Positions 23,864 to 43,592 of a stretch of DNA of 43,592 nt are shown in pieces. The DNA lies in assembly GCA_016929055.1 (NCBI GenBank), contig JAFGJN010000116.1, positions 1-43,592 on the forward strand, read 5' to 3'. Position 1 is the first letter of the stretch; each line of letters opens with the position of its first letter. The stretch is from Candidatus Zhuqueibacterota bacterium. GTDB taxonomy: Bacteria; Zhuqueibacterota; Zhuqueibacteria; Residuimicrobiales; Oceaniaggregativiventaceae. Below the pieces are notes generated by a model. The model was not told the DNA's origin. It worked only from the letters and a program-made list of their open reading frames with translations, and searched no databases. Position numbers and translations under genes: made by a program.

Positions 23864-24853
23864 ATGATGAAAAAATGTTTGGCGACTCTGCTTCTGACCC
23901 TCTGTGCGGTCGCTCCAACCCTCGGGCAGGGATTCGCCCCCGTGGGAACCGCCGTGGCGCAGTTTCTTGAAATCGGCCTGGGCGCCCGCGCAACTGGCAT
24001 GGGATCGGCCTATACCGCCATGGTCGACGACGCCGGCGCCGTTTTCTGGAATCCCGCCGGCCTTGTCCACGTCGAGAATCACAACCTCTTTACCGCCTAT
24101 AATCAATGGCCGGCTGATATCTCCCTCGTCGGCGCATCCTATGCCGTGACCCTCGGAAACATCGGTACCTTTGCGCTGCACTCGGTCTATCTGATGACCG
24201 ATGATATGGAAATCACCACCATTCAGAAGCCGGATGGCACCGGCTCCTTTTTCAGCATCGCGAACTATAGCATGGGCATCTCTTTTGCCCGTATGCTCAC
24301 CGATCGCGTTTCCGTTGGCCTTACTGGCAAAGTGGTACACGAAAAATATTGGGAAAATGGTTATACCACCTTTGCCGTCGATCTCGGCACGCTTTACAAA
24401 ACCGGTTTTCATGGCCTGCAACTGGGCATGTCTATCCTGCACTTTGGACCGGATGTCACCTATAACGGCGACTATATCGATTACAGCGATTCGCGTTCTT
24501 TCGATGCCAACCGACCGAAAAGCTTTGAACCCCATTCCATGCCGATCAATTTTCGTTTTGGTATATCCATCGATGTGATCGATCGAGGCAACAGCAAATT
24601 GACCACAGCGGTCGACATGATCCATCCCAACAACAATCTGGAACAGTACAATCTGGGCGCGGAATATGGTTTCAACCGCACTTTTTTTCTGCGCGGCGGC
24701 TACCAGTTCGAATCGGATGAAGGCGGCCTCTGTTTCGGCACCGGTATTCGTTCTTCGCTGATCGGTCAGGCTCTCGCAGCCATCGATTATTCCTATGCAG
24801 ATCTCGGTGTTTTGCAGGATGTCCACCGGGTTTCCTTTTCTCTGTCTTATTAA
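23864..24853 (+). CDS. PorV/PorQ-family outer-membrane barrel protein
   Basis: 329 residues, signal peptide MMKKCLATLLLTLCAVAPTLG. The conserved start after cleavage is typical of PorV/PorQ-type T9SS proteins: FLEIGLGARATGMGSAYTAM then DDAGAVFWNPAGL. The barrel runs through strands such as SMGISFARMLTDRVSVGLTG to the end, SFSLSY. In studied systems PorV carries cargo from SprA to the attachment complex with PorU, while PorQ relatives act alongside PorZ; sequence alone does not separate them here. GAGG upstream and two adjacent ATGs make the exact start uncertain by one codon. Placed between a secreted protein (57 bp upstream) and a sorting-domain protein downstream, it looks like a dedicated partner for those products. 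Confidence 0.85.
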   Translation: MMKKCLATLLLTLCAVAPTLGQGFAPVGTAVAQFLEIGLGARATGMGSAYTAMVDDAGAVFWNPAGLVHVENHNLFTAYNQWPADISLVGASYAVTLGNIGTFALHSVYLMTDDMEITTIQKPDGTGSFFSIANYSMGISFARMLTDRVSVGLTGKVVHEKYWENGYTTFAVDLGTLYKTGFHGLQLGMSILHFGPDVTYNGDYIDYSDSRSFDANRPKSFEPHSMPINFRFGISIDVIDRGNSKLTTAVDMIHPNNNLEQYNLGAEYGFNRTFFLRGGYQFESDEGGLCFGTGIRSSLIGQALAAIDYSYADLGVLQDVHRVSFSLSY

Positions 24854-28357: not shown

Positions 28358-29542
28358 TTATTTGGGTTCCAAACTTTGGCGCAACTCTTCCAGTTCGCTC
28401 TGCGGCTCTCGACCCTCCAGCACCTTGCGCAGACGTTCGAGTTCACGCTCGGCCTTGCGGCGCTCATCGCGGATGCGCTCCAGCTCCTCTTCGGCCGATT
28501 CGGTCTCTCGCCGTTCGCGAATGATCTGCTCAAAAAGTTCCCGCCGGCTTTCGGCTTTTTGCATCAGGATATCGCGCTCGCGCGTGCGATAGATCGATGT
28601 AGGCAACAGAACAAACTTGGCGCCGACATTCACCCGCCAGGTGTTGTAATTGGGTGTTCCCAATTCGGGAAAACGCTGCGGCAGCGTCGTCTCGTTGACA
28701 TCCGCAGTCAAGCGATAATCGCCGGAAACCATAAAATGAAACCAGCGAAAAGCTTTGTAGGTTACGCTTGCATTGATATAAGCGTAATTTTCCCGGCTGG
28801 CGGCAGCTCTCGGCGGCTTTTGAATCCACCACAGACCATAGAGTTCCAGACCATAGTTGAATCCGATTGTCGGGATGGTAAAACCGAGGCCGTAATTGAC
28901 ATGCTGGCTCGGGTGAATCACATTGTTTTCCGGATGAAGCACCTTTGGAATCAGATCCTGACCGACGTCGTTGTGATGCCAGTATCCGAGATTGGCATGA
29001 ACGTTCAACGCGTCTTCTGGATAAAGCGGATCATAAGCATAGCTCAGCAGAGCGGTCAAACCAGCTTCGATAGTGCCGGCTGTATAATCCTCATAGATTA
29101 CATTGTGCCGTTCGCCGGTCGGAAATCGAGCGCCGAGTTCAAAGCCATAATTCAGCGAATTCGCTTTGGGGCCAAAAGAACCGATCTTGAGACCCAGAAA
29201 CGTATCCCAGGGATACTCTTCAGTCTGACCCTGATGCACGTCCTGATAAGCGATCGGTGTAAGCGTCACACCGAAATGTTTGCCCAGGCCGTAATTCATG
29301 CTCACCAGACCCTGAACCGTCCAGACCGTCACCGCATCCTGCAAGCCCAATTGGGTGTCGGTAAACTGGCTGACCTTACCCCAGAAGCGCGTGTGCATCA
29401 ACATGGAAAGATGCGTTCTCTCTTGCACCCAAGCCGCTTTGGTGTGGGGCAATCCGCGACCGCCATTGATCACCGCCGCTTGTGAAGCGGTGCTCAAAAG
29501 CAGCACGACTGCAAAAATCAGTGCGGACTTGTAGATTTTCAT
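28358..29542 (-). CDS. Outer-membrane barrel protein with C-terminal coiled coil, unrecognised family
   Basis: 394 residues from ATG 29542, which has GGAGG seven bases upstream; an upstream ATG at 29575 adds 11 residues before the signal peptide and is rejected. The signal peptide is MKIYKSALIFAVVLLLSTASQA. Residues ~25-315 alternate polar and aromatic residues in barrel-like strands (VSMNYGLGKHFGVTLTPIAY, NYGFELGARFPTGERH, WRVNVGAKFVLLP). The last ~78 residues are a highly charged heptad-like helix (EELERIRDERRKAERELERL) that would lie in the periplasm if the barrel ends at the inner face. This is neither an OmpA domain nor a usual barrel ending in an aromatic residue. Last gene after porU, the PorV-like gene and the lipoprotein; a T9SS accessory role is inferred from position only. 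Confidence 0.8.
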   Translation of the reverse strand: MKIYKSALIFAVVLLLSTASQAAVINGGRGLPHTKAAWVQERTHLSMLMHTRFWGKVSQFTDTQLGLQDAVTVWTVQGLVSMNYGLGKHFGVTLTPIAYQDVHQGQTEEYPWDTFLGLKIGSFGPKANSLNYGFELGARFPTGERHNVIYEDYTAGTIEAGLTALLSYAYDPLYPEDALNVHANLGYWHHNDVGQDLIPKVLHPENNVIHPSQHVNYGLGFTIPTIGFNYGLELYGLWWIQKPPRAAASRENYAYINASVTYKAFRWFHFMVSGDYRLTADVNETTLPQRFPELGTPNYNTWRVNVGAKFVLLPTSIYRTRERDILMQKAESRRELFEQIIRERRETESAEEELERIRDERRKAERELERLRKVLEGREPQSELEELRQSLEPK

Positions 29543-29608
29543 CGCCTTACCTCCGGGAGAATGATAGGGGATCACCCAGAATTCGAAATAGAATACGAGT
29601 TTACTTAA

Positions 29609-29636
29609 AATCTATTATTTTTTGGCAAAGAGTCAA
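29609..29636 (-). promoter_or_regulatory. Possible sigma70-like promoter for the coiled-coil barrel gene
   Basis: On the minus strand TTGACT (29636-29631) and TAGATT (29614-29609) are 16 bp apart, in an AT-rich part of the 143-bp gap before the barrel gene. The -35 is identical to that at 18617 and the spacing is the same. The -10 is weaker. It suggests that the last gene can be transcribed apart from the porU genes. Confidence 0.45.
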
Positions 29637-29685
29637 GATAAATCATCACTTGCGACCGGTTAAAGACGGCGAACCTCTCGGCAAA

Positions 29686-30387
29686 TCAAGGGAATATGAA
29701 CCGATGCCAGTTGGATTCGCTGCCTGATCTGATCGACGAACCAACGATATCGACTCGCCAGCGGTAGCGGCGCCGGCTCTCAAGCCGATCTGAATTGCTG
29801 GTGCCGTCCCAATTGTAAACCACCTCTTCTTCCAGACCGCTATAGGAAGACTGGATCGATGAAAACCAAATCGGCGTATCGTTTTCGTCGTCATACAGTT
29901 TAAGCACATAGCGGTCGGGCAGGATCTCGGGCAACTGCCAATGAAAAAGCAAGGAAGTGATGGTAGAGATTCTCAGATTTACCGCCTTGGCCACGAGTTG
30001 ATAATCCAACGTATCTGAAGCCGGGCTGCGATTGTTGGAGACGTCCAGCCCTACAGCGGTATAAAAATAGCGTTTGTTCAGCAGGACAGTCGAATCGATG
30101 AAAAGGGTATCTGCTGCTTTTACTTCAGCGAGGGCTTGGAAATCATCCTCATCGGCGGCACGGCGGTAAAGCCGAACCCGATCCAAACGCTCGTCATATT
30201 CCCACTGGAGCTGAATGGCGTCGATTTCCGCTATCGCATCGATGCCGCGCTCATCAAGCGCCATATCGGGCGGGCTTGGCAGCAACGATGGCAGCGGTAC
30301 ATCTTTGGTCGGCCGTGTGCTCTGATCCCTGCACCCGGTTGTCGCCAAAACAAGCCATCCGATCAACAAGGCCAAAAGTAAGCGCAT
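29686..30387 (-). CDS. Lipoprotein with two Fn3-like domains, unrecognised family
   Basis: 233 residues; ATG 30387 follows AGAGG at five bases. The N-terminus MRLLLALLIGWLVLATTGC is a lipoprotein signal with Cys19 (T at -3 is slightly unusual). After a Pro-rich linker, residues ~55-130 (AIQLQWEYDERLDRVRLYRR then KRYFYTAVGLDVSNNRSPAS) and ~140-230 (LLFHWQLPEILPDRYVLKLY then RRYRWRVDIVGSS) are two Fn3-like folds. It lies 15 bp after the PorV/PorQ-like gene, which is 9 bp after porU, so the three form an operon. Possible role: an outer-membrane-anchored partner of PorU or PorV. I know no named T9SS lipoprotein with this architecture. Confidence 0.8.
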   Translation of the reverse strand: MRLLLALLIGWLVLATTGCRDQSTRPTKDVPLPSLLPSPPDMALDERGIDAIAEIDAIQLQWEYDERLDRVRLYRRAADEDDFQALAEVKAADTLFIDSTVLLNKRYFYTAVGLDVSNNRSPASDTLDYQLVAKAVNLRISTITSLLFHWQLPEILPDRYVLKLYDDENDTPIWFSSIQSSYSGLEEEVVYNWDGTSNSDRLESRRRYRWRVDIVGSSIRSGSESNWHRFIFP

Positions 30388-30402
30388 AGAGACCTCTTGT
30401 AT

Positions 30403-31434
30403 CTAAAAATTCAAATTGCAGCTCACCCGATGCACACCGTCAAAATCCAGGGTTACAAAAGCATAATCGACTTGCAGGCGCCACATTCGAAATCCGGCTC
30501 CGGCAGTGAAGCCGAATCGATTGGCTCCGATCCGCAGAGCCAGACCTCGGGTCTGGAATTCCGCCCCCCACAGGTTGTGGCTTGTATATTTGCGATATCG
30601 GGTCCAGTAAAAACCGACATCTCCGTGCAACTGTCGCAACGGGTGGCGATAGGCGATACCCAAACGCATCGCTGCATGAATCCGATCTTCGTGTTTGGTA
30701 TCCCAGATAATAGCGGTACGGGTGATATCGCTCAAAGAAAATCCGATACTCAGATCGCCCAAAGCTCGGCGATCAAAGAGCGCAGCGAGACTGAAGCGCA
30801 AAGCCGTCCCGCAATCGACGCCCAGACCCGAAGCGCTGTGGCCGTAAACTGACTCCTGAAAAACTTTGAAATTCAGACCAATCGGGATCTGAATCGGCAA
30901 ATCGATGAACAACCATCCCAGCGGGAGCACAGGCTCCCAGAGTTTGCTGAAAGTGAAATAGTAAACATCCTGCGTATCAGTAAAATAGCCAAGCGGTTCA
31001 CCAGTGGGGCGTAACTCTTTGTTCTGCCGTCGATCGGCAAAGAAAAGCTTGCCGATAGAGGGATAGATCGGAATTTCGTCGACGCTGAAACGCGTCCAAT
31101 TGACGGCGACGGCCGCCTGACCACGGAGGGGAAAAACCAGACCGGCATGATGATAATGCGCCATCGGCTCGGCGATGCTGCCAAATGTGGGCGCGTACAT
31201 CAGATGCATCTGTCTCTGCGTCAGAGCGATTAAAGCTGGATTATAGTAAAACATCGGTCCATCACCCATCAAGGCGACGGCGGCTTCTCCCAAGGCAAGC
31301 GATCGTGCACCCAAACCCAGTTCGAGCGCAGAACCGGCGTATTTGCCCTCTGAGGCCCAAAGTGACACGACCAGAGTCAGCAAAAACAACCCGATAATCG
31401 CATAGTGTTTCTTCACAAAAGCACCCGTTTTCAC
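30403..31434 (-). CDS. PorV/PorQ-family outer-membrane protein in the porU operon
   Basis: 343 residues from GTG 31434 (no clear ribosome site; GTG 31413, just before a Lys-Lys pair, is an alternative). A signal segment (AIIGLFLLTLVVSLWASEG) is followed by SALELGLGARSLALGEAAVA then GDGPMFYYNPALIAL, the same conserved N-terminal pattern as the PorV-like protein at 23864. Barrel strands continue to VHRVSCNLNF. It starts 9 bp after the porU stop, which suggests translational coupling. In Porphyromonas PorU, PorV, PorQ and PorZ form the attachment complex, so this is the likely PorU partner; the choice between PorV and PorQ is open. Confidence 0.83.
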   Translation of the reverse strand: MKTGAFVKKHYAIIGLFLLTLVVSLWASEGKYAGSALELGLGARSLALGEAAVALMGDGPMFYYNPALIALTQRQMHLMYAPTFGSIAEPMAHYHHAGLVFPLRGQAAVAVNWTRFSVDEIPIYPSIGKLFFADRRQNKELRPTGEPLGYFTDTQDVYYFTFSKLWEPVLPLGWLFIDLPIQIPIGLNFKVFQESVYGHSASGLGVDCGTALRFSLAALFDRRALGDLSIGFSLSDITRTAIIWDTKHEDRIHAAMRLGIAYRHPLRQLHGDVGFYWTRYRKYTSHNLWGAEFQTRGLALRIGANRFGFTAGAGFRMWRLQVDYAFVTLDFDGVHRVSCNLNF

Positions 31435-31443
31435 CGGTATCTG

Positions 31444-34400
31444 TTACTGTAGCCGCATCAATTTGCCCGTCAATTCAAGCGATTGACCGCCTGCAGCCAC
31501 CGATAATTTATAAAAATAGACGCCATTGGCAACCGAATCCCCCGATTGATCCCGGCCGTCCCACAACAATTCGTGATAATCGGCTCCGAGCGGATTGGAA
31601 TCAGCCAGGCTTTCACGTGCGTCCAACGTCCGGATCAATTGACCCGAAGCGGTATAGATTTTAATCTCCAAACGATCACAGGGTTGCGTCAGTTCATAAG
31701 CGAAAATCATTTCGCGCATAAAGGGATTGGGATAGGTCCCCAGCAAACGCACATCAAACCGCTCCGCCACCTGAAACGAAAATTCTTTAGGCAAAGACAT
31801 GTTGCCAAAGCAGTCAAATGCGGTTAATTCGATGGTATGGCGGCCAGGCACGAATTCGGGTCTGATTTCCACGACCACCTGATTGCCGTTGCTCGGCCTG
31901 TCGGGCATTCGAATCGATTCCTGAGTTACTGGCTGACCATCGATGTGGAAAAACAGATCATGCTTGGAGAGATCCACGCCATTGACGTCCTGCAAAACAG
32001 CGGCAATGCGCGGACGGCGCTGAACAAATCCATTTTCAACCGGCGGCTGTCCGTCGACCATCAACTCGATGGTTGGTGGCACCCGATCCTCACCCGCCAG
32101 CAATGTATAAACACCGCCCTGCCGAACAAAAGCCAGGAGCTGATCCTCATGCCGTTCCTGCTCCAGCCGCACCCATTTGCCGCTGCGCTCCTGCAAACGA
32201 AAGATGTGAACCGGTTTGCCGATCTCTTCGAGCCGAGTTCGCAGCAGCGCCGAAAGGTGAAAGGCGACCGCAACAGGCTCCACGAATTGTTCCGACGAAT
32301 CTGCCGTGAAAAATCGATAGGCAAGAATCCCGGAGAGCGCCTGAAAATCCGGCTGTTCGTCGATTCCGGGAAAAGGAGTGGAAAAAACAGTCAAAACCGT
32401 CGGCGCGGCAACAGCGCCGGAGGAAAGCCGCAGCGCAAAAACAGAATCCAATTGCAAGGAGTGGATCAGACTGTCTCCTGCCACCAAACCGAGTTCCGGG
32501 ATGCAATTAAAGTGTTCGACAGCAAAAACCGCACTAAATCGATTGTCATAGCGAAAGAGTCGATCAAAAAGCGTATCCGGATCGACCGTAACACGAACGC
32601 GTGCCGTGCCCGGAATCGGAGAAAACGGCACCTCCGCTTGCACTTTGGACAGAGCTGACAAATCCACTCGGTCGCGTCCCAGATTAAGCCAGACACCGCT
32701 TTTTTCATCATAATGCTCAAATTGCACATCCACACCGGCAACGTCGACAGCGCTGTTGTTGCTCAAGCGTACCGCCAGGCGGGTTTCTTTCGATCCGCGC
32801 AAGTGAATCGATTGTTCGAGCACAGCCAGATCGATACGGTCTGCCGGCGTAAAATCCTGCCCCTCGCTCTGCAAAACCCGGTCATCATCCAGGCGTACAA
32901 ACACACGATAGTTGAATCCAAAGGGATAATAAAAGGGCGCGGAATGATAGCGCTCTCCCGAAAGGGGGAAAAAAGGAATCGAGTCCGACTGCACCCGTCC
33001 CCAAACCCTGTCGATGCTCTGGTCGGCAACGATGCGGGCCAGAAGGCGGCTGCTGTCGCCGGGAAGCGGTTGTACCCTCAGGGAATCAAAAAGAACGGGG
33101 GCGAGCGACAGTGCACAGGAGCCATGGACCCGTTGCAGGCCCAGTTCATCTTCACCATAAAAAACAAGACGCCCGGTGGAACCGCCAAAGCTGTTCGGCA
33201 CATCGATTTGAAATGAAGCAGATCCATCTTGAATAAGCAGCGATTGTCTTCCGCTTGCGGTCAGGGCGCTGTCGATCAGGACAGCCTGACCGCTGCCGCG
33301 GGCGAAAGGCAGTTCAACATCGACCGAGACAGTTTCTCCGGGGTTGAGCAGAGAGCGTTCTGCAGAGAGCGGTATACGCTGGTCCGCTCCGCCCAGCCGC
33401 AAGGCGGGATCGCCCAGAAGGTGGTATTGGTTGGTTTCAGAAAAGACATAAGGTGTGGGACCGTTTTGAATCTGGTAGAGATTTTTTCCCTGCCGAATCA
33501 ATTCTCCCAGCGGCAGGGATGGGTTGCGATCGTAAACCTGCAAAATCTCGCGTTGCAGCAAATAGTCATTGACGACCCACCCCTCGCCACTGGCGCCCAG
33601 AAAGGCTACCGAACCGATTTCCTCGTTGAATAGCAGAGCATCGGCCAAACCACGAAAACTCGGCGATTCAAATGCACCGGAAAAACAGGTCATGCTCATA
33701 ATAAAAGGCCATTTGCCCCGATTGGCAAATCGCCCGACATCCTCTGTCCGCAAGAGTCCGTTGTCCGCCCAAATTCCGCCGCCGCCATGCCCATGAAAAT
33801 TGATGATCGAACATCCCTCATCGATATAGTCGAGAAGGTCGGCGGTTCCACCAAAAAAGGGATCGTTTTCAACTCCACCGCGTCTGACGGTCAGCAAAAT
33901 ATTTTTCTCATAATCGGGAGACATGCGCTGCACCAGATCAAGCGCCTGCTCGTGAAAAGGCGCCTGGTTGCTGAAATTGCCACCGATGAACAAATGCCGA
34001 TTTCGCCAGGACCCGCCGACAGACTCGTTTTCATAGGCGACAATCTTGTTGGTCAGTGCGTCGCATTCGTCGACTGTTCGTGCCGGCAACCGACCGAGAG
34101 CGATTTCCGACAATTCATCGTCTCCGTCTAAAAGCGTGTACCAATAATCGCTGGCGGTTGCACCCCACTGCCACGTTTGACGCAGATAGACCGGAACCAG
34201 ATCGAGCGTGTCGCCAAGCGCAGTTCGCCGTTGGCGGCTGCCGTTGCCGACCAGGAGCACATATTTCAGACGGGGGTTTTTCCAGGTGTGGTAGGCGTGC
34301 GACAGAAACGCTTTGAGCGCTTCAGGTGTTGGTCGACCGTCGCCGAATTCGTCATAGATATCCGCGACGTCGACCTTGAGCACCTGCAGTCCTTGATCCT

Positions 34401-36282
34401 GTCGTTTGCCGATCAAACGATCCAGCCCTGGGGAATTAAAGAATCGATTGTGAGTGATGACCAGGTAATCGCAGGCCAGATTTTCCGCACGCAGCCGGAC
34501 AGGATTGACGGGCAGGATTTTATGCGGCTTTTTTTTGCGATCGCGCTCGATGGCCAGGTATTCAGTCGCCGACGAGGTCGCCTGATCCTGAAATGTCACC
34601 TGAATGGAGGTGAAATCCTCAAAATCAGTCGTTTCTTTGGTTACAGCACCAACAATCCGGCTGGACCCCAATTTGAAAATGTCGATCTCGTGCGACGAAA
34701 ATCCGTCGATCTGAAAACGATAGAGTCCCGGTGTATAGTCCGGCGGCATGGTAAACCGCAGCCACCCTTCATGGGCGCGATAAAGCCGTGGGTACGTGAC
34801 CTCGAACCAGTTCAGCATGACATAATCGATCTTGGAGGCGTCGACGAGATTGATCAGCGTCAGACTGTTGCGGCCGGAATAAAGATCCGCGCCAACGAGC
34901 GTATTTGTCGCTTCCGTGCGCAAATCGCTATAATTCTGACCATACCATTCGCCCTCCAGGACGTAGCGATTGTTGATATAGGCTGAAATTTTATGAAAAA
35001 AAGGATCCATGCTGCTGGATGGTGTGCTTTTGCCGCCCATCATGATGCGAATCTGCAGAGGCTGCGCCGAACGCTTGTCCGGATGCCACAAATCAAAAAG
35101 ATAGTCGCGCTTTTCTGCAGCGGCAATGCCGCTGTCATAAAAAAAATGATCGCGACTGTCTCCCTCCGGCACATCACGCAGATGATTGAAAGCCGGGCTC
35201 TGTTCCACATGCACGGTTTGCATGAAGGAATAGGGACGATGGATCGAGGGATTGCTTTCGCTGGTCACGGCGCCGGATTCGTCAGTCAACCACAAACCCA
35301 AGGACGTCCCCCAACTCAGATAATAGACCCGAATCGGGCCGTAAGGATCTTCATACAGATCCGGAGAGGTCTGGCGATCGGGATAACGCGCATACTCACC
35401 CCAAAACTCGATACCATCCTGCTCATTGAATTGACCGTCCTGCCAGCCCTGAACGTAGATCGGCACCTGACTCGAACCGCAGGTCAGCTGCACCGTTCGC
35501 ATATCGATGGACAAGAGATCGACTCCGGCTTGACGCAAATCCTTTCCGGTGACGCGATACCAGCCGTCTTGCTCGATATAGAGTTTGCAGCGCTGCATCG
35601 CGTTGCTTTGAGATTGCTGGTTTCGCACGTCTCGCTCCGTCGCCAGTAGATAGGGCTCGCCGAGCACCAACTCTATCTGTTCTGCGCTTTGCAGTGCGAA
35701 AGTATTCGGCATGACCCTTCGGGCTTTTGCCGAACTCGAAGACCAGCTGAGGGTGACGGTATAGGATCCATCGACGATCAGCTGACCAGCAGAAGAATCG
35801 TACCGCACCGGGTTGAAACAGAGACGCCAGACATCAAAACCGTTCATTCGGCCGAGACGATACAGACTCGCCGGCTCGTCGTCGTGATCACCCGTTTCTA
35901 GCCCCTCAACCCGGCCGGTGGACAGACTCTGTTCCCGATGGTGCTGCAGCGGCGCATCCAATTCGATCCGCGTGCTTTCAAGTTTGTTGATCTCCAAATC
36001 GATGTCAGTGGCGGGAATGTGCAACGGCAAAACCTGCAACGGCAAGGAAAAGGGGCCGGATTCGATCCAGCCCTCCTGCGGCACGGACAGACGCATCCGG
36101 CGTTCGCCGTCCTCAAAGATGGTTTCAAGCAACGGATGGTCAAACCGGCAGGAAAAGACGAGTTTTTGCGAAGAGTGGTGCAGGATTCGTACCTGAGCCA
36201 AACACGGGGTCGTCGAAAGTATCGACAGAATCAGAACTTGGAGAACAAAAAAAATGCGAGACAAGGAATTCATCGGCGTCAT
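31444..36282 (-). CDS. porU: PorU-like T9SS C25-family sortase/signal peptidase
   Basis: 1612 residues from ATG 36282 (ATG 36273 also possible; the frame is open further up but only through a terminator-like repeat). The signal peptide ends STTPCLAQ. About residues 25-200 form the PorU/gingipain propeptide-like region. The C25 peptidase domain lies at about 560-950, with the catalytic pair visible as His832 in FHGHGGGGIWAD and Cys866 in MSMTCFSGAF. Ig-like and CARDB-like domains follow (LAVRLSNNSAVDVAGVDVQF). The C-terminus carries its own sorting-type domain (LLGTYPNPFMREMIFAYEL, then KIYTASGQLIRTLDA). PorU cleaves the sorting domain from cargo and attaches cargo to lipopolysaccharide at the cell surface. 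At 1612 residues it is well above the ~1150 of Porphyromonas PorU. First gene of the PorU/PorV-like/lipoprotein operon. Confidence 0.87.
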   Translation of the reverse strand: MTPMNSLSRIFFVLQVLILSILSTTPCLAQVRILHHSSQKLVFSCRFDHPLLETIFEDGERRMRLSVPQEGWIESGPFSLPLQVLPLHIPATDIDLEINKLESTRIELDAPLQHHREQSLSTGRVEGLETGDHDDEPASLYRLGRMNGFDVWRLCFNPVRYDSSAGQLIVDGSYTVTLSWSSSSAKARRVMPNTFALQSAEQIELVLGEPYLLATERDVRNQQSQSNAMQRCKLYIEQDGWYRVTGKDLRQAGVDLLSIDMRTVQLTCGSSQVPIYVQGWQDGQFNEQDGIEFWGEYARYPDRQTSPDLYEDPYGPIRVYYLSWGTSLGLWLTDESGAVTSESNPSIHRPYSFMQTVHVEQSPAFNHLRDVPEGDSRDHFFYDSGIAAAEKRDYLFDLWHPDKRSAQPLQIRIMMGGKSTPSSSMDPFFHKISAYINNRYVLEGEWYGQNYSDLRTEATNTLVGADLYSGRNSLTLINLVDASKIDYVMLNWFEVTYPRLYRAHEGWLRFTMPPDYTPGLYRFQIDGFSSHEIDIFKLGSSRIVGAVTKETTDFEDFTSIQVTFQDQATSSATEYLAIERDRKKKPHKILPVNPVRLRAENLACDYLVITHNRFFNSPGLDRLIGKRQDQGLQVLKVDVADIYDEFGDGRPTPEALKAFLSHAYHTWKNPRLKYVLLVGNGSRQRRTALGDTLDLVPVYLRQTWQWGATASDYWYTLLDGDDELSEIALGRLPARTVDECDALTNKIVAYENESVGGSWRNRHLFIGGNFSNQAPFHEQALDLVQRMSPDYEKNILLTVRRGGVENDPFFGGTADLLDYIDEGCSIINFHGHGGGGIWADNGLLRTEDVGRFANRGKWPFIMSMTCFSGAFESPSFRGLADALLFNEEIGSVAFLGASGEGWVVNDYLLQREILQVYDRNPSLPLGELIRQGKNLYQIQNGPTPYVFSETNQYHLLGDPALRLGGADQRIPLSAERSLLNPGETVSVDVELPFARGSGQAVLIDSALTASGRQSLLIQDGSASFQIDVPNSFGGSTGRLVFYGEDELGLQRVHGSCALSLAPVLFDSLRVQPLPGDSSRLLARIVADQSIDRVWGRVQSDSIPFFPLSGERYHSAPFYYPFGFNYRVFVRLDDDRVLQSEGQDFTPADRIDLAVLEQSIHLRGSKETRLAVRLSNNSAVDVAGVDVQFEHYDEKSGVWLNLGRDRVDLSALSKVQAEVPFSPIPGTARVRVTVDPDTLFDRLFRYDNRFSAVFAVEHFNCIPELGLVAGDSLIHSLQLDSVFALRLSSGAVAAPTVLTVFSTPFPGIDEQPDFQALSGILAYRFFTADSSEQFVEPVAVAFHLSALLRTRLEEIGKPVHIFRLQERSGKWVRLEQERHEDQLLAFVRQGGVYTLLAGEDRVPPTIELMVDGQPPVENGFVQRRPRIAAVLQDVNGVDLSKHDLFFHIDGQPVTQESIRMPDRPSNGNQVVVEIRPEFVPGRHTIELTAFDCFGNMSLPKEFSFQVAERFDVRLLGTYPNPFMREMIFAYELTQPCDRLEIKIYTASGQLIRTLDARESLADSNPLGADYHELLWDGRDQSGDSVANGVYFYKLSVAAGGQSLELTGKLMRLQ

Positions 36283-36376
36283 TCGATTGAAAAAAGGTGA
36301 CAAAGGCTGCTGCGCCAAATCGCATGTGCAAACAATATAGGATATTCGCGTCATGAGTCCAATGACTTTTTTAGCG

Positions 36377-36459
36377 AAAAAAGGGCTGCGGCTGAATGCT
36401 CGATCGAAATGGCAGGATGCAGAAGAAGGCCTGCCGATGCGAGTTCTCCGCCGCAGCCC
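36377..36459 (-). terminator. Nested long-loop terminator between the repeat-protein gene and porU
   Basis: GGGCTGCGGC (36383-36392) and GCCGCAGCCC (36450-36459) pair over 10 bp and enclose an inner stem GGCAGG/CCTGCC (36411-36435). On the minus strand the outer stem is followed by TTTTTTCGC. It lies 36 bp after the stop of the gene at 36495 and so separates that gene from porU. Confidence 0.65.
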
Positions 36460-36494
36460 GAAACAGCTCAAGGGCGCAAAAAATTCGATTCGCC

Positions 36495-39400
36495 TTATTT
36501 GATCATCAGCATTTTAACAGAAAGAGTCTGATGTTCCGATTCGAATCGCGCAAAATAGAGACCCGATGCGAGCGCTTTGCCGCTATCGTCCCGGCCATCC
36601 CAGGTCACTTGATATTCACCGGCTTCATAAGCGGCGTCTATCAGGCTGCGGACGCGGCGGCCGAGATTGTCATAAACCGCGACACGAATTTCGGCGCGCT
36701 GCGGCAAAATGAATTTCAGCCGAGTGGTCGGATTAAAGGGATTGGGATAATTGCTCATCACGGTGAATCGATTCGGCAAGGCCGTCGACGGGTTTTCATC
36801 GACGCTGACAACCTGATCGTCGAGGTCACCGGGAAAAAGATCGAAAACCAGTCCCGAGGTCGGTGTAGATTCGTCCACAAACACCGCGACGGCATCATCC
36901 GGCACATCCACAGCAAAGGGCAGAGGCACATGCAAAGGCAGCAACGCCTGGTCATAGCTATTGACGAAACCATGACGGGTCAGATCAAAAATAAAATCAT
37001 AGAGATTGAAAGCGAGCCAGGCATCGCCCCCGCCGTTCCAGATATCCTGATACACCTGAAAGTCGAGATCGAGATCCAAAACGGTCGACAGCAATCCACC
37101 AACCTGATCCATCAGATCACCATCGCCCATCAGGCCATCCAGCATCTCTTCGGCCATCTCTAACAGAGCTGTGGCACGAGTAAAGGATAAAGTACGCAAA
37201 TAATAAGAACCCGTCTTCAGCCCGGTCACCTCAAAAAATCCCGGATCGGAAAAAGGCATACCGCTCGACAAATCGATGCCGCTCATTCCGAATCCAACAA
37301 GGTGGCCTGTCAGGTCATAGGCCAAAACACCGATCGTGCTCAGCGCTTCGCCGGTCTCACCGTCACGAATGGAGCCGCGGATCTTTCCAGTCGCTCGAGC
37401 GAGATCGATCGAAACACCGTCTTGGATGTCGCCTGCCGCCACGGCGATGGTTTGTACCGCCTGGTCGAACGCATTGCCACCACCCAAATAGCTGGCGGCA
37501 TAAGGCGCCACCACCGGCAGGGCCATGATTTTATAGGAACCTGCCGGCAATCGATCGATTCGATAACCCCCGGTGAATTGGACATAATCATATCCCACCG
37601 TTTTCCCGGTCGCGGCATCGAACGCTATCACCGGAAAACCCCAGAGCGTATCCGCACCCGCCGAAAAGTCGCTTGCCAATCGGATAAAGCCCTGCACAGT
37701 GGCCCCTTTATTCAGTGAAAAATCCTTGTTTGAAACCGTATTGCCATCCAGCACAACGATTTCTGCTTGCTCGAAATCGCAGGTGCCACTAAAATATTGA
37801 CTCAGATAAAGATCGCTGCTTTGGAGACCGCTGAGAGCCAGCAGTTTGTATTGACCAGGGGGCAAAGGCGTGATCGAAAATTGTCCTTCTGGGTCGATTT
37901 TTTTTCCAGGTAGGTCGGCGTAACCGCTGACCAGAGGCAGATAGGGATAACCGGTAGCAGCATCTAGCGCGACGATGGCCACATCGTGTACCGCCGCCCC
38001 GCTATGAGCATCTCTGACGGAACCGGAGATCGTTCCCACCGGCGGCAATTGAAAATTGATATTATTTGTCACCTCTCCAACAATCAATGGAACGCGCTCG
38101 GCATCACCGAATCGAAAGATATTTGCAATACCGCCGTAATAGATATCGATGATTTCGCCGGCGTGCTTACCCGGAGCGATCAGATCACCAACGTCGGAAA
38201 GACCGCCGAGATCGGCATTGATCATGTAATCGGAAAACGTACGTACATAATAATCGCCATCCGGCAAACCCGTAATCTCGTATCGGCCATCGAGATCGGT
38301 AACCGCAAGCCCGAGTTGGACACGGGTGAGGAACGGATCCTTACCAGGGCCGCCAAGATCGGCGTTTACAGCCAATACGATCAACGAATCGACCGGTTGT
38401 CCCTGTTGATCCATCACTCGACCGGAGATGGAAGCGCCCGACAACAGGGTGAAATTGATATTTTCCTTGCGCTCGTTGGCAGTGACTTTGACCAGGGTGG
38501 CTTCGGCCGGCGTACGAGCACCGTCATAGAATTCGCCGAGGTAATCGCCGGCACCTACAAGGCTGCCCAGATAGTCGTTGGCATAGACGTAATACTCTTT
38601 AGGCAAGAGATTGTCGATGGAATAACTGCCAAAAAGACCATTTAATTCGAGGACATTGTTCATCGCGACCAGTGAAGTGTCTTCGGCGTCAAAAACGAAA
38701 ACAAGAGCCAGAATGCTGAGATAGCTGTCTTCAGGCCAAACCCGGCCGGAAATCCCGCCGGTTTCCGGGCCTTGAGGCAAAGGCCAGAGATTGAACGACA
38801 GAACCGGCATGGCTCCGCCCTCCACCAGCTGCACCGGTTCGGCGAATGCCCATTCGACGCCGGGATACCAGGTGGTCTGGTAACCGGCGACACGAGCGCC
38901 AATTTTCACCGCCCCGGCTGCCGGTATAAGCAGATTGAAAATGCCGTTCGATTCGTTGTGAATCTGGGCAATCTCTATGTCGGGATTATCCGCAGGCGTG
39001 ATGAAAAACCAGACATTCTGATCTTCGAATTTACTCATGCCGTCTTCACGGTAAAGCGTGACTTTGACCGGATTGCCAGTCTGAAGCACAAAATCGATAC
39101 CGCCGGTCATTTGGTCGTCGACCACATCAACAGCTGTGGCCATGCGCCAGGTCTCCCGCGAGCCCATCGGGGCGATGACATTTGGATAGATAGCATTGAT
39201 GCAATAGTCGCTTTCCGTCATCACATAATAGGCGCCGGCTACAAGATTCCAGATGCGATAAACGCCTTCGGCATCGGTCGAGGATGAGCCGAAAAAATAT
39301 CCATGCCGGTCAAAAGCCAAAACCCGCACCGGATGGGCCGGCACGGCACCGCCGACGATCACCGTCCCGCTTATCGATCCCGAACCCTGGACCGCTTGTT

Positions 39401-39776
39401 GCTGGTGCCGGTTGAGTTTTTCCCAGGCTTCTCGATCATCGTCGATTTGAGCCCGCATGTGGGAAAAGGACTCGAAAAATGACGGGACCAAAATATCGGG
39501 TCGCAACTGTTGTTCGATCTCGCTATCGATTTTGGCCATGACCGCACGGTCACGAATGGCGGACTCGACTGAATGCTTGATCTGCGCATCCATCGATTGA
39601 GCCGTTTGTACGGCAGCCTGCAGCCTATCGGCTTCCATCGGCCGAGTAAACTGTTGCGCCAGCACCTGGGCAGCGCTCTCCTTTTCGCTCCGGTCGATGG
39701 CAGCTGTGGCGAAAACACTGAACGCATAAACCATCAAAAACGAGAAAAATGCTATGGAAAAACGGCTGATTTTCAT
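36495..39776 (-). CDS. Large secreted protein of tandem carboxypeptidase-regulatory-like repeats with T9SS sorting domain
   Basis: 1093 residues; ATG 39776 follows AAAGGA seven bases upstream. The signal peptide is MKISRFSIAFFSFLMVYAFSVFATA. A helical, Gln/Glu-rich stretch (~30-130) is followed by at least six Ig-like CarboxypepD_reg-type repeats, each starting [SGT]x[IV][SRQ]G[TRSF][VI], for example SGSISGTVIVGGAVPAHPVR, GISGRVWPEDS, ASISGRVMDQQGQPVDSL, GTISGSVRDAHSGAAVHD and KIRGSIRDGETGEALST. Each has a GxYxIxxLPxGxYY turn. Residues ~1003-1093 are a type A sorting domain (SNYPNPFNPTTRLKFILP, VAVYDNLGRRVRSLID, SVKMLMIK). It is probably a surface stalk or adhesin; no enzyme motif is seen. 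It is separated from porU by a terminator. Confidence 0.88.
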   Translation of the reverse strand: MKISRFSIAFFSFLMVYAFSVFATAAIDRSEKESAAQVLAQQFTRPMEADRLQAAVQTAQSMDAQIKHSVESAIRDRAVMAKIDSEIEQQLRPDILVPSFFESFSHMRAQIDDDREAWEKLNRHQQQAVQGSGSISGTVIVGGAVPAHPVRVLAFDRHGYFFGSSSTDAEGVYRIWNLVAGAYYVMTESDYCINAIYPNVIAPMGSRETWRMATAVDVVDDQMTGGIDFVLQTGNPVKVTLYREDGMSKFEDQNVWFFITPADNPDIEIAQIHNESNGIFNLLIPAAGAVKIGARVAGYQTTWYPGVEWAFAEPVQLVEGGAMPVLSFNLWPLPQGPETGGISGRVWPEDSYLSILALVFVFDAEDTSLVAMNNVLELNGLFGSYSIDNLLPKEYYVYANDYLGSLVGAGDYLGEFYDGARTPAEATLVKVTANERKENINFTLLSGASISGRVMDQQGQPVDSLIVLAVNADLGGPGKDPFLTRVQLGLAVTDLDGRYEITGLPDGDYYVRTFSDYMINADLGGLSDVGDLIAPGKHAGEIIDIYYGGIANIFRFGDAERVPLIVGEVTNNINFQLPPVGTISGSVRDAHSGAAVHDVAIVALDAATGYPYLPLVSGYADLPGKKIDPEGQFSITPLPPGQYKLLALSGLQSSDLYLSQYFSGTCDFEQAEIVVLDGNTVSNKDFSLNKGATVQGFIRLASDFSAGADTLWGFPVIAFDAATGKTVGYDYVQFTGGYRIDRLPAGSYKIMALPVVAPYAASYLGGGNAFDQAVQTIAVAAGDIQDGVSIDLARATGKIRGSIRDGETGEALSTIGVLAYDLTGHLVGFGMSGIDLSSGMPFSDPGFFEVTGLKTGSYYLRTLSFTRATALLEMAEEMLDGLMGDGDLMDQVGGLLSTVLDLDLDFQVYQDIWNGGGDAWLAFNLYDFIFDLTRHGFVNSYDQALLPLHVPLPFAVDVPDDAVAVFVDESTPTSGLVFDLFPGDLDDQVVSVDENPSTALPNRFTVMSNYPNPFNPTTRLKFILPQRAEIRVAVYDNLGRRVRSLIDAAYEAGEYQVTWDGRDDSGKALASGLYFARFESEHQTLSVKMLMIK

Positions 39777-40051
39777 GATTTTTTCCTTTCTTTTGGAATC
39801 CCTTCGGGATCACCTTACGGCCGTTGCCGCAAATTTTTCAGCATTGAATTTTCGCGCTCGCACCCTAGTTTATCGATCTTGATGGACACGAAACGTGAGC
39901 GAGGACACATTCGACCGTTTTTTTAGTGGCCGACTCTAGCAAATCTAAAACAAGCGTTTTGGTTAGGTAAATTCCCGCCGGGTTCTGATAAAAGCGACAA
40001 GTACAAAGGCTCAAGTCCGGCAATGCACTGATTCGGATCGATTTCCTGCCA
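39777..40051. promoter_or_regulatory. Upstream region of the secreted repeat-protein gene
   Basis: 275 bp without a gene between the prmA end and the next minus-strand start. A minus-strand TAGATTTG near 39940 resembles the Bacteroidota -7 element TAnnTTTG, but the matching upstream TTTG at usual distance is not found. The promoter is therefore expected but not assigned. Confidence 0.25.
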
Positions 40052-40067
40052 GATAGCGGTCGCTATC
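40052..40067. terminator. Short palindrome at the prmA stop
   Basis: GATAGCG (40052-40058) pairs with CGCTATC (40061-40067) around GT, overlapping the prmA stop codon. There is no T-run on the minus-strand side, so a terminator role is weak. Confidence 0.3.
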
Positions 40068-40971
40068 GATCATGATCAGGGTTGAAATCGGCGGTTTGTT
40101 TTATCGCATGCACCGCGATCCACTCTTCTTCTCGCAGAACGGTCAATGGGTGAAACCCGGCTTGATGCAGATGTGTGCAAAACTCGATCTCTTCAGCAAG
40201 GAGCAAACCGGAAAGAATGACATGCCCATCCGGGGAGAGGCGATCAAAAAAATCGGGCAAAAGGGGGACAAGGATGGAACGCTGAATGTTGGCGACGATT
40301 CGATCGAAGCGCAAAGGGTTCAGGGCATCAAGAGTCCCGGTGTAGAATTCGATCCGGTCGGCTACCCCGTTCTTGATAGCGTTTCGACGAGCGGTTTCCA
40401 CCGCGATCGGATCGTTGTCTAGAGCGACACAGTTTTTGGCTCCCAGCTTGACGGCGGCGATGGCCAGAATGCCGGTGCCAGTGCCAACGTCGAGCACCCG
40501 ATCGCCGCCGCTGATCGCCGTTTCTAAAAACAGCAATGTCAATCGCGTGGATGCGTGAGTTCCGGTACCGAAGGCCATTTCCGGATCGATCTCGAGCAGA
40601 CAAGCAGGCTCCGGCTCAGGAGCCGGCAACCAACTCGGCCGAATCCAGATCCGATCCGAAACACGCAGGGTTTTCCACCCGGCTTTCCAGGTGCTGTTCC
40701 AGTCCTGATCGGCAAAAAAAGAGGTCTCGGGACTGCGTGCGGGTACGGTAAAACCACGATCGGCCAAAAGACTCAGAAAAACGGCATAGGCAGATTGAAT
40801 TTCCTCGATCGACTGCGAAGGCGGAAAATAGGCCTCAATTCCTTCCGGTTTTTCGATCAGGCCGCTTGCCCCTTGATCGAAACAAAACCGAGAGATCGCT
40901 TCCCGTAATTCATCGGGCGAGTAAAAGAGCCAACGGCTCCATAAAACGACGGGTTGACTGGTATCGGACAT
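40063..40971 (-). CDS. prmA: Ribosomal protein L11 methyltransferase
   Basis: 302 residues from ATG 40971. A TTG at 40986 overlapping the sprA stop would add five residues. The N-terminal domain (WLFYSPDELREAISRFCFDQ, GLIEKPEGIEAYF) is the L11-recognition part. The catalytic half shows EIDPEMAFGTGTHASTRLTL, then the SAM-binding VLDVGTGTGILAIAAVKLGA, the acidic VALDNDPIA and FDRIVANIQRSILVPLLP. PrmA trimethylates lysines and the N-terminus of ribosomal protein L11 in the cytoplasm. It directly follows sprA on the same strand, an unexpected pairing of a ribosome-modification gene with an outer-membrane translocon gene. Confidence 0.94.
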   Translation of the reverse strand: MSDTSQPVVLWSRWLFYSPDELREAISRFCFDQGASGLIEKPEGIEAYFPPSQSIEEIQSAYAVFLSLLADRGFTVPARSPETSFFADQDWNSTWKAGWKTLRVSDRIWIRPSWLPAPEPEPACLLEIDPEMAFGTGTHASTRLTLLFLETAISGGDRVLDVGTGTGILAIAAVKLGAKNCVALDNDPIAVETARRNAIKNGVADRIEFYTGTLDALNPLRFDRIVANIQRSILVPLLPDFFDRLSPDGHVILSGLLLAEEIEFCTHLHQAGFHPLTVLREEEWIAVHAIKQTADFNPDHDR

Positions 40972-40982
40972 GACAGCACCGC

Positions 40983-43592
40983 TCAATTGCCGCGGATGGC
41001 GATATTGACGTCGATCGAAAACTCTTTATAGGACGAATCCCCTACCAAAGCGTTGTGGGTTTTGCCCATTTCAAAGCTGGTTCCTCCGCGCACCCGGTCG
41101 GAAAAACTGTATTGAACGGCTGGCTTGAGCGACCACTTGCTCGTTTCGGAAGTGGGCTCATAGTCACCGCCTGCTCGGCTCTTGTACTGTTCCTGGCTGG
41201 TCATGCTAAAGGTAAAGGAAAAATTGATGCTGTTCTTGAGACGCATGTTCTCGAAAGGCCAGATCGGAATGCGGAAATCGCTCTGTTTGGACCAATTGGC
41301 CGACAGCGACAGGTCGTCGCTGACCGAGCGTGTTGCGCCATAATTGGATCCAATACTGATGGACTCGTCGTTTTGAGTGTTGTAGCGCGCCTGTATCGAC
41401 AGGCCATTATTCATCTGCATCGTCAATCCAATCAGTGGCCGAAAACCCGATTTGTTGTTTTCTTTGGTCGGAATCTCGCGGCCGTTTTCCACATCAAACG
41501 TGTTTGAGCTCTGACCGTTATAGGCATGATCAAGAGAAACTCGGCTGAACCAATCCTTTATAAAAGGCAATTTCTCGCCGCCGCCGACACGCACCGACCA
41601 ACTGGGAAAGAGCATATCAAAATCATCTCCCATAACCAGCCAACTCTGCGACCGGGAACCGGTGGTCTGAGTGCTCGAGTTGAGTGAATAGGATTGGTCG
41701 TACTTGAAACTGATATTGATGTTGCGGCTGATATTAAAGCCGGATGAGGTGTTGAAAGAGCGATTGATTCCGCTGGAACCGCGGTTAAAACTGCCACTCC
41801 CGGTGTTGGCCTCCAGGGGTACGCCAAGGCTGTCGGTCAGTCCCAGTTGAAATCCCCATTGCGGAATTCCCATCACACCAAATGCGGTTATGTTGTTGCG
41901 TTCGGACCAATTTAGGGTAAAAGGATCGAAAATGCTAAAAAATTTGACAAACAAACCGAGGGATTTAAGGGCCACATTCGGACCGCTATCGGTTTGTTCT
42001 TCCTTTTTATCTGTTTCGCTCTGATCCGTTTGTCCCGGACGGGGGCGTCCGGTTCGCTGGGTCGGGCGCCGCCCGCGTGCGCTTTTATCCGGATCATAAA
42101 TGGATCGCGTCAGGGTCTTGAGATTCAGCGATCCGTTGAAACTCACGGTGCGGTTTTGCGAGGCATTAGCCGCAGCCAGGGTCTGTTGCCGATTAAAGCT
42201 GTATTTGAAACTCGTGCTGTAAGTGAAATTGCTGGTCAGCCAGGCAAAGATCTGGGGTGAATACTTGACCGAGGTATTCTGATCGATTCCAGTTAAAAGA
42301 CCCAATCGTCCGGCTCGTATTTGCGCCCACAAAGAATCGCTCGGCACATCGCGCAAATCGTTGGTATAATTGCGGCTCAAATCGAGCGACAAACTCTCGA
42401 ATATTTTCATGCGGGTGGAGAAATTGCGATTGATGGTAAAGCTGCTGTTGGCGCTAAAAACCTCTGTTCGGGTCAGCGACTCTTGGTTGTTTCGCGTGCC
42501 ACTCATACTGGTCGAAATCGACTGAGGAGTGTAATAGAGCTTGAGATCCGTTAACTTGCGCACCATTTTGGCATCACCCAACCATTTCAATGGACGCACG
42601 TAATTATCGCGGGAAAAATTGATGCCCCAGTCCAGTTTGCCGTTCTCCTGCAACGCCGTGGCGTATTTGGTGGTCGAATTGTGGCTAAACGATTCGCTGC
42701 GGCTGTAATTCGCCTTGAACTGAGACAACAGGTGTTTGACGACAAAGCTTTGCGATCGGGAGCGAACGGATAGCGAAACGCTGAATCCTTTCTTCTCGTT
42801 GTACTTGCGCACCAGATCGACGATTGAATCGGGCAGCGCTTCAGTTTCCACATCGGTGCCAGGCTTGTATTTGGGCGTCGCCTCACTGCGCGCATAGTTG
42901 TAATTAACCGGCAAAGAGATTCCGAGTTTACTCGGGAAAAACTTGTCGAGATTGAGAGTCGTGCTGAAATTACCGCTTAGCTGATTGTCGCCGTCGCCAA
43001 ACCGGGTGGCCACATTGTGAAAATCTGCATCCCGCTGGTTAAGTTCTCCGTTGAAACGAATCAGATCGGCCCATTGCAGGTCGAGACGCGCGCGCATGGC
43101 CATACCAGCGTCTTTTTTAACGTTGGAAAGACGCAGTTCGTTCAGCCAGATTTCGCCGTTAAAGGGAAACACTTCATTGATCGGCAGGTCGAGCTCTTGG
43201 GCACTGAGATTTTTAACACCGGCGATCAATGTCCGCACATTGGTCAGCGCAGGCTGCCCCTTGATATAGAGAATCTGACCATTCGGCTGAACCTGCTGCC
43301 ATCCGTATCGCCCGTCGACAGTGGAATCGGCATCGGTTTTCAGCTTGAGTGCAGCCAATTCCACCAAATCGACATCAACATCGTTGTTCAACCACCCCTC
43401 ATAAATCCGTCGCCGGACTTCGTAATAGTTGTTTTCATCGGAGCCAAAACGCAAAAAGACCTCGATGTGACTCGAGTCCGAGCGGATATGACTGCCAAAA
43501 AGATCCGAGCCATAAACATACATTTTCAAATTCTTGTAATTAATATAATTCTGCGGCTCGTAAAAGGTCTTTTGAATGGCGCCATTTTCGCC
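40983..43592 (-). CDS. sprA: SprA-like T9SS outer-membrane translocon, C-terminal part (cut by window edge)
   Basis: 869 codons are visible and the frame is open through the right edge, so the start lies outside. SprA landmarks are present: YINYKNLKMYVYGSDLFG, FPFNGEIWLNELRLSNVKKD, LDLQWADLIRFNGELN and KFFPSKLGISLPVNYNYARS. The rest is a long run of amphipathic strands ending VNIAIRGN. SprA forms the very large (about 36-strand) outer-membrane pore through which T9SS cargo passes; Bacteroidota SprA has about 2400 residues, so roughly the last third is here. A low-complexity basic stretch (RGRRPTQRTGRPRPGQTDQS) near visible residue 500 is probably a loop. The stop codon overlaps a possible prmA start. 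Confidence 0.88.
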   Translation of the reverse strand, partial: GENGAIQKTFYEPQNYINYKNLKMYVYGSDLFGSHIRSDSSHIEVFLRFGSDENNYYEVRRRIYEGWLNNDVDVDLVELAALKLKTDADSTVDGRYGWQQVQPNGQILYIKGQPALTNVRTLIAGVKNLSAQELDLPINEVFPFNGEIWLNELRLSNVKKDAGMAMRARLDLQWADLIRFNGELNQRDADFHNVATRFGDGDNQLSGNFSTTLNLDKFFPSKLGISLPVNYNYARSEATPKYKPGTDVETEALPDSIVDLVRKYNEKKGFSVSLSVRSRSQSFVVKHLLSQFKANYSRSESFSHNSTTKYATALQENGKLDWGINFSRDNYVRPLKWLGDAKMVRKLTDLKLYYTPQSISTSMSGTRNNQESLTRTEVFSANSSFTINRNFSTRMKIFESLSLDLSRNYTNDLRDVPSDSLWAQIRAGRLGLLTGIDQNTSVKYSPQIFAWLTSNFTYSTSFKYSFNRQQTLAAANASQNRTVSFNGSLNLKTLTRSIYDPDKSARGRRPTQRTGRPRPGQTDQSETDKKEEQTDSGPNVALKSLGLFVKFFSIFDPFTLNWSERNNITAFGVMGIPQWGFQLGLTDSLGVPLEANTGSGSFNRGSSGINRSFNTSSGFNISRNINISFKYDQSYSLNSSTQTTGSRSQSWLVMGDDFDMLFPSWSVRVGGGEKLPFIKDWFSRVSLDHAYNGQSSNTFDVENGREIPTKENNKSGFRPLIGLTMQMNNGLSIQARYNTQNDESISIGSNYGATRSVSDDLSLSANWSKQSDFRIPIWPFENMRLKNSINFSFTFSMTSQEQYKSRAGGDYEPTSETSKWSLKPAVQYSFSDRVRGGTSFEMGKTHNALVGDSSYKEFSIDVNIAIRGN

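Follow-up and report, generated by a model that had tools for sequence, protein, structure and literature searches.

Here we describe a gene group related to the type IX secretion system (T9SS) in the genome of a Candidatus Zhuqueibacterota bacterium (candidate phylum KSB1/Zhuqueibacterota). The window, i.e., the whole stretch of 43,592 nucleotides that was analyzed, is one complete contig (C183) of this 4.05 Mb, 366-contig genome (G000). Seven contiguous open reading frames lie on its minus strand (28358-29542, 29686-30387, 30403-31434, 31444-36471, 36495-39776, 40063-40986 and 40983-43592). Their coordinates, the single orientation and the tight spacings of 9 bp between the C25 peptidase and PorV-like genes and of 15 bp between the latter and a lipoprotein gene are all as the initial annotation had reported; a further 143 bp separate the lipoprotein gene from that of an outer-membrane (OM) barrel.

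Protein families were named by means of the Pfam and NCBIfam models with their respective cut-offs, which identify SprA, PrmA, a protein with a C-terminal sorting domain (CTD), a PorV/PorQ-family barrel and a C25 peptidase whose tail is of the FlgD_ig/T9SS type. Neither collection has a curated family for the lipoprotein or the OM barrel, in keeping with the earlier statement that they match no T9SS component, and both are new protein families that bear no curated name.

The PorU-like peptidase and its PorV-family partner

Judged by its sequence, the gene initially annotated as porU is not that of the canonical sortase but a separate paralogue, hereafter C25A (31444..36273, minus strand; Peptidase_C25, 267.9 bits). 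Its likely start is 36273, where a signal peptide (MNSLSRIFF...) opens a protein of 1609 aa, and not the listed TTG at 36471. Against the NCBIfam PorU model (NF033707) C25A reaches 325 bits, short of the cut-off of 420, the match covering model positions 7-741 of 1095 and residues 294-1035 of the protein, with the PorU-type N-terminal region retained. The canonical PorU of the same genome lies on another contig (C7) and scores 907.6 bits against the same model. Furthermore, in a tree of 42 C25 domains the C25A clade, whose 21 rows take in Calditrichota and a single genome from a further phylum, is split with a support of 100/100 from all other C25 domains, among them those of the canonical PorU and of another paralogue, C25B. 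The identification as porU had therefore to be abandoned.

The catalytic domain (33394..34467, minus strand, by Pfam coordinates) carries the expected His (GHG) and Cys (TC), and none of the 42 C25 proteins aligned lacks either residue, the His being of GHG/GHA type and the Cys of TC/SC type. At the C-terminus a FlgD_ig/T9SS-type Ig domain (31495..31704, minus strand; PF13860) passes its cut-off (36.8 bits, cut-off 27), and the sorting-domain model TIGR04183 stays below its own (15.9 bits, cut-off 23).

In the loci examined, C25A is always adjacent, wherever the contig allows, to a PorV/PorQ-family barrel, PorV(A) (30403..31434, minus strand), assigned as its cognate partner from its position after C25A. 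The window's protein falls below the cut-off of NF033709 (71.6 vs. 90 bits) and the orthologue at L047 reaches 92.4 bits, so that the PorV(A) clade straddles this limit. The idea of a second PorU-like/PorV-like pair is common to PorU2/PorV2 (NF052324/NF052325), but the window proteins differ from these, with 196.3 bits against a cut-off of 450 and 61 against a cut-off of 325. In the literature collection that was searched, no account was found of PorU2/PorV2, and none of a T9SS in KSB1.

The lipoprotein, the barrel and the conservation of their order

The lipoprotein (29686..30387, minus strand) combines a signal peptide, a lipobox Cys and a fibronectin type III (Fn3) fold, the features of an Fn3-bearing bacterial OM lipoprotein. 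Its AlphaFold model has a pLDDT of 94.5, a PDB search returns tandem Fn3 domains, and the Pfam fn3 model is recognized in 5 of 23 family members. The lipobox Cys (C19), W62 and the motifs WRxD and G..S.W are invariant, and SDT nearly so; in the window's family the conserved motifs read W/RVD/SGSES. One intact copy occurs in 34 of 82 KSB1 genomes, fragments in one more (G064) and a partial match in an outside genome (G088); a search of named collections added homologues in Calditrichota and Marinimicrobia. In the genomes checked, the lipoprotein gene directly follows PorV(A) where the contig allows, with the sole exception of a distant Marinimicrobia homologue (L055). Of the 36 genomes that match the lipoprotein in full or in part, 32 have the barrel gene at most 3 kb away, and this conservation exceeds what chance would give.

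The PorU-like/PorV-like/lipoprotein/barrel order of the window is conserved in related genomes and persists in several classes, in Calditrichota and in a further phylum. In other, deeper KSB1 lineages it is expanded to C25A-PorV(A)-lipoprotein-SLBB-RmlA-like nucleotidyltransferase-barrel, and in Calditrichota and G088 the same order is seen without the nucleotidyltransferase. The arrangement of the window may then be a reduced form of this fuller one. The term “lineage-specific” used for the two proteins proved too narrow, since KSB1 shares the set with Calditrichota and with one or more other lineages.

There is no lipoprotein at six of the C25A-PorV(A)-barrel loci (in G002, G006, G010, G014, G016 and G017, one of them in the window's own family), and to account for its distribution the tree requires four or more changes of state. 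It is therefore dispensable and not a core part, and the idea that it is essential was rejected. In turn, at the G064 locus (L099, contig C64), where C25A and PorV(A) are missing, the lipoprotein survives as broken fragments beside intact SLBB, nucleotidyltransferase and barrel genes. Together with the six loci, this remnant indicates a one-way dependence, of the lipoprotein on the C25A-PorV(A) pair. A place in an attachment-type complex, as first suggested, is reasonable in the light of this dependence.

These data also bear on a looser view, that of a loose collection of surface-protein genes, in which C25A would be an ordinary secreted protease exported with the help of a PorV-family protein, and the genes for the lipoprotein and the barrel would be unrelated envelope genes lying next to it by chance. 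The repeated loss of the lipoprotein, its distribution differing from that of the barrel, and the abundance of PorV-family proteins (21 places over cut-off in the window's genome) speak for this view, but the order preserved over such distances, the decay of the lipoprotein where C25A and PorV(A) are gone and the PorU-type N-terminal region of C25A speak against it, and we consider it unlikely.

The barrel (28358..29542, minus strand) was modelled with 12 strands followed by a C-terminal helix of 54 residues (322-375; 28418..28579, minus strand), which is long and conserved in the alignment and which, the strand number being even, is predicted to lie in the periplasm. The best structural matches in the PDB are the FapF, NanC and COG4313 channels, and a PDB sequence search with the barrel profile gave coiled-coil matches only. 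FapF also bears a coiled coil. The likeness to FapF and COG4313 (Phenol_MetA_deg) channels lies in the 12-strand barrel; the differences are an identity of about 11% over the alignment and the C-terminal position of the helix here.

A search of 99 genomes found relatives of the barrel, often with paralogues, in 80, and its occurrence is nearly phylum-wide. In several loci the barrel is found without C25A, PorV(A) or the lipoprotein (L085, L086, L090, L091, L095 and L098), next to a small SLBB protein in L095 and L098 and to an RmlA-like nucleotidyltransferase in L090; SLBB and barrel genes adjoin each other in 25 genomes, and 11 of these lack the lipoprotein. The possibility that the barrel is specific to C25A was accordingly discarded. 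This independent occurrence, together with the channel-like fold, means that the barrel is probably not the translocon component that the initial annotation envisaged, and a partner in glycan export is more likely.

The original proposal, that the lipoprotein and the coiled-coil barrel are lineage-specific parts of a single T9SS attachment or translocon complex working with the genome's PorU, has in its favour the conserved order beside a PorU-like gene and the vicinity of sprA and prmA in L035, L066 and L093. It seems improbable, given that the adjacent C25 peptidase is a paralogue with the canonical PorU located elsewhere, that the barrel occurs without C25A, PorV(A) and the lipoprotein in the six loci just listed, and that most genomes with SprA and PorU are devoid of the lipoprotein.

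A candidate second attachment module

In Porphyromonas gingivalis, the sorting domain is cut by PorU, which attaches the cargo to anionic lipopolysaccharide (A-LPS) brought by the beta-propeller protein PorZ (PMC8545088), and PorV acts as a shuttle (PMC8545088; PMC11285876). The group described here resembles this PorU-PorV-PorQ-PorZ complex in that a C25 peptidase with a putative Ig-like sorting domain of its own is paired with a PorV/Q-family barrel, and in having an accessory surface protein and a probable link to a glycan acceptor. It departs from it in that C25A, a paralogue, does not reach the PorU cut-off and shares its genome with the canonical PorU, and in that the accessory protein, instead of being a CTD-bearing beta-propeller, is a lipoprotein with two Fn3 domains that lacks a sorting domain. 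A PorZ-like role by homology was rejected on the latter grounds.

We propose, giving it an even chance, that the gene group constitutes a second, paralogous PorU/PorV-type attachment module within a type IX-like secretion system. In this module, C25A would be a PorU-like surface cysteine transpeptidase/peptidase with its own sorting domain, and PorV(A) a dedicated barrel holding that domain at the surface and perhaps handing over cargo, as the P. gingivalis PorV does. The lipoprotein would be an accessory OM-anchored subunit placed on or beside PorV/C25A through its Ig-like domains, where it would serve as a docking site for cargo or glycan. The barrel of 12 strands would be a separately inherited OM channel working with the small, OPX-like SLBB protein of the periplasm (OPX, outer-membrane polysaccharide export), and this couple would most likely deliver the acceptor, a glycan or glycolipid, for the cargo that C25A joins. 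By analogy with P. gingivalis, C25A and PorV(A) would stand for a further sortase and its shuttle, the lipoprotein for their docking subunit, and the barrel with the SLBB protein for the putative source of the acceptor glycan. The data establish the conservation and order of the genes, the folds, the catalytic residues, the paralogy, the dependence of the lipoprotein on C25A-PorV(A) and the association of barrel and SLBB genes; sortase activity, the formation of a complex, a glycan as acceptor and the role of the barrel are inferred from them.

The assignment of the barrel draws on its neighbours. The SLBB protein, of about 170 aa, has only the SLBB domain in Pfam and a hydrophobic stretch at the C-terminus, is conserved almost phylum-wide and, in the window's genome, is encoded (G000:C327:4335-4805) beside a Wzz/GNVR/kinase-type polysaccharide co-polymerase. 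This location and the SLBB-barrel adjacency form the pattern of OPX/barrel glycan export, in which composite translocons are known with OPX-partner barrels of 18 strands (PMC9601211). As in the EpsY/EpsX translocon of Myxococcus xanthus, an OM barrel gene adjoins a short periplasmic SLBB/OPX-like gene (in the 25 genomes, the window's not among them), with a nucleotidyltransferase nearby. Unlike EpsY/EpsX, the barrel has a C-terminal periplasmic helix and is linked to a PorU-like sortase, and the SLBB protein has the reduced composition described above.

Several facts weigh against the proposed module. The lipoprotein, missing from six C25A-PorV(A) loci with at least four changes of state, is not essential; the confidence of the barrel model is moderate (pLDDT 76.6); 12 strands are predicted where the OPX-partner barrel has 18 (AlgE-like); in the window, SLBB and nucleotidyltransferase genes are unlinked to the barrel; and the adjacency of SLBB and barrel in other lineages does not prove that they work together.

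The co-inheritance of C25A, PorV(A), lipoprotein and barrel suggests a different route by which the exports of a type IX-like system may be finished and anchored. Should the lipoprotein prove to be a dedicated subunit, it would offer a small, well-folded handle on the choice of cargo and acceptor by PorU-like sortases. Moreover, T9SS biology is based on few Bacteroidota, and here is a phylum that keeps SprA, PorU and the sorting domains, multiplies the PorU-PorV pair and adds unnamed families.

SprA, the motor and the neighbouring genes

The 3′ part of sprA/sov, encoding the OM translocon, occupies 40983..43592 (minus strand; TIGR04189, 265.9 bits, cut-off 200; SprA_N); the gene is cut because the contig ends inside it, and a 5′ part was found on contig C160. 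TIGR04189 passes its cut-off in all 44 KSB1 genomes tested. In contrast to the Bacteroidota-type T9SS, with which KSB1 shares SprA, GldM exceeded its cut-off in none of 82 KSB1 genomes (two outside genomes being positive at 156-158 bits) and GldN in none of 44, the same two outside genomes being positive; GldL was found in 0 of 60 genomes in a search that had no positive control. As a whole, then, the KSB1 set (G000-G081) has SprA, PorU and sorting domains with GldM and GldN undetectable, and a highly divergent motor may exist. With the motor proteins undetected, how such systems are powered becomes directly testable. In Flavobacterium johnsoniae the extended translocon comprises the accessory parts SprE/SkpA/PorD/PPI (PMC10994853); the new proteins resemble them as accessory envelope proteins around SprA-PorV but lack their published architecture (TPR lipoprotein, Skp homologue).

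The undetected GldM and GldN, beside a SprA that is present, have to be considered together with the barrel helix, whose coiled coil could give the module a periplasmic anchorage on peptidoglycan or on a hub and replace the missing PorK/N ring as a structural or energizing part of the T9SS. The nearly phylum-wide occurrence of the barrel, the length and conservation of the helix, and the MotA/ExbB and ExbD genes that follow the barrel in two lipoprotein-less genomes (L064:12713-13809, confirmed by Pfam, and L068:13732-14879, by sequence similarity) fit such a role. Nevertheless, this adjacency was seen at those two loci only, barrel paralogues of the window's genome and its sister genome sit among housekeeping genes (L087, L088) and the structural neighbours are channels, so that we regard it as very unlikely.

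Extending instead the proposed attachment module to the whole group, KSB1 and its relatives would perform type IX-like export without the known motor and ring of GldM/GldN and employ several PorU-like sortases, each with its own PorV and lipoprotein, the module of the window coupling a sortase to a dedicated OPX/barrel glycan exporter and thereby joining secreted proteins to a particular surface polysaccharide. This generalization is rather doubtful at present.

Next to sprA lies prmA (40063..40986, minus strand; TIGR00406 over cut-off), a conserved housekeeping neighbour encoding the ribosomal protein L11 methyltransferase, which adjoins C25A in L035, L043, L064, L066, L068 and L093. The gene between prmA and C25A (36495..39776, minus strand) encodes a large surface protein with carboxypeptidase-regulatory-like repeats (CarboxypepD_reg) and a type A T9SS sorting domain (TIGR04183, 31.4 bits, cut-off 23). 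It is a probable cargo, and its orthologues stand upstream of C25A in L034, L039, L043, L064, L068 and L092. Weak NCBIfam matches to ComGA and Cas12k among the window proteins were rejected as chance.

Two further C25 groups were observed. A fourth one, fully supported and of about 1630-1810 aa (L078, L079, L080, L073), has no adjacent PorV-like gene detected. C25B has its own PorV-like partner, PorV(B) (L057:5036-12288, on G000:C45; L059, L062, L065, L067, L072, L074-L077), and the pair lies among glycosyltransferases. A beta-propeller lipoprotein and a glycosyltransferase of the PMT_2 type are usually close by within a polysaccharide cluster, an arrangement reminiscent of PorZ, and the analogy of this pair counts in favour of the module proposed for C25A. 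Finally, the window carries another PorV/PorQ-family barrel, well over cut-off, at 23864-24853, in whose vicinity lie two TonB-receptor-like proteins and a protein with a sorting domain.

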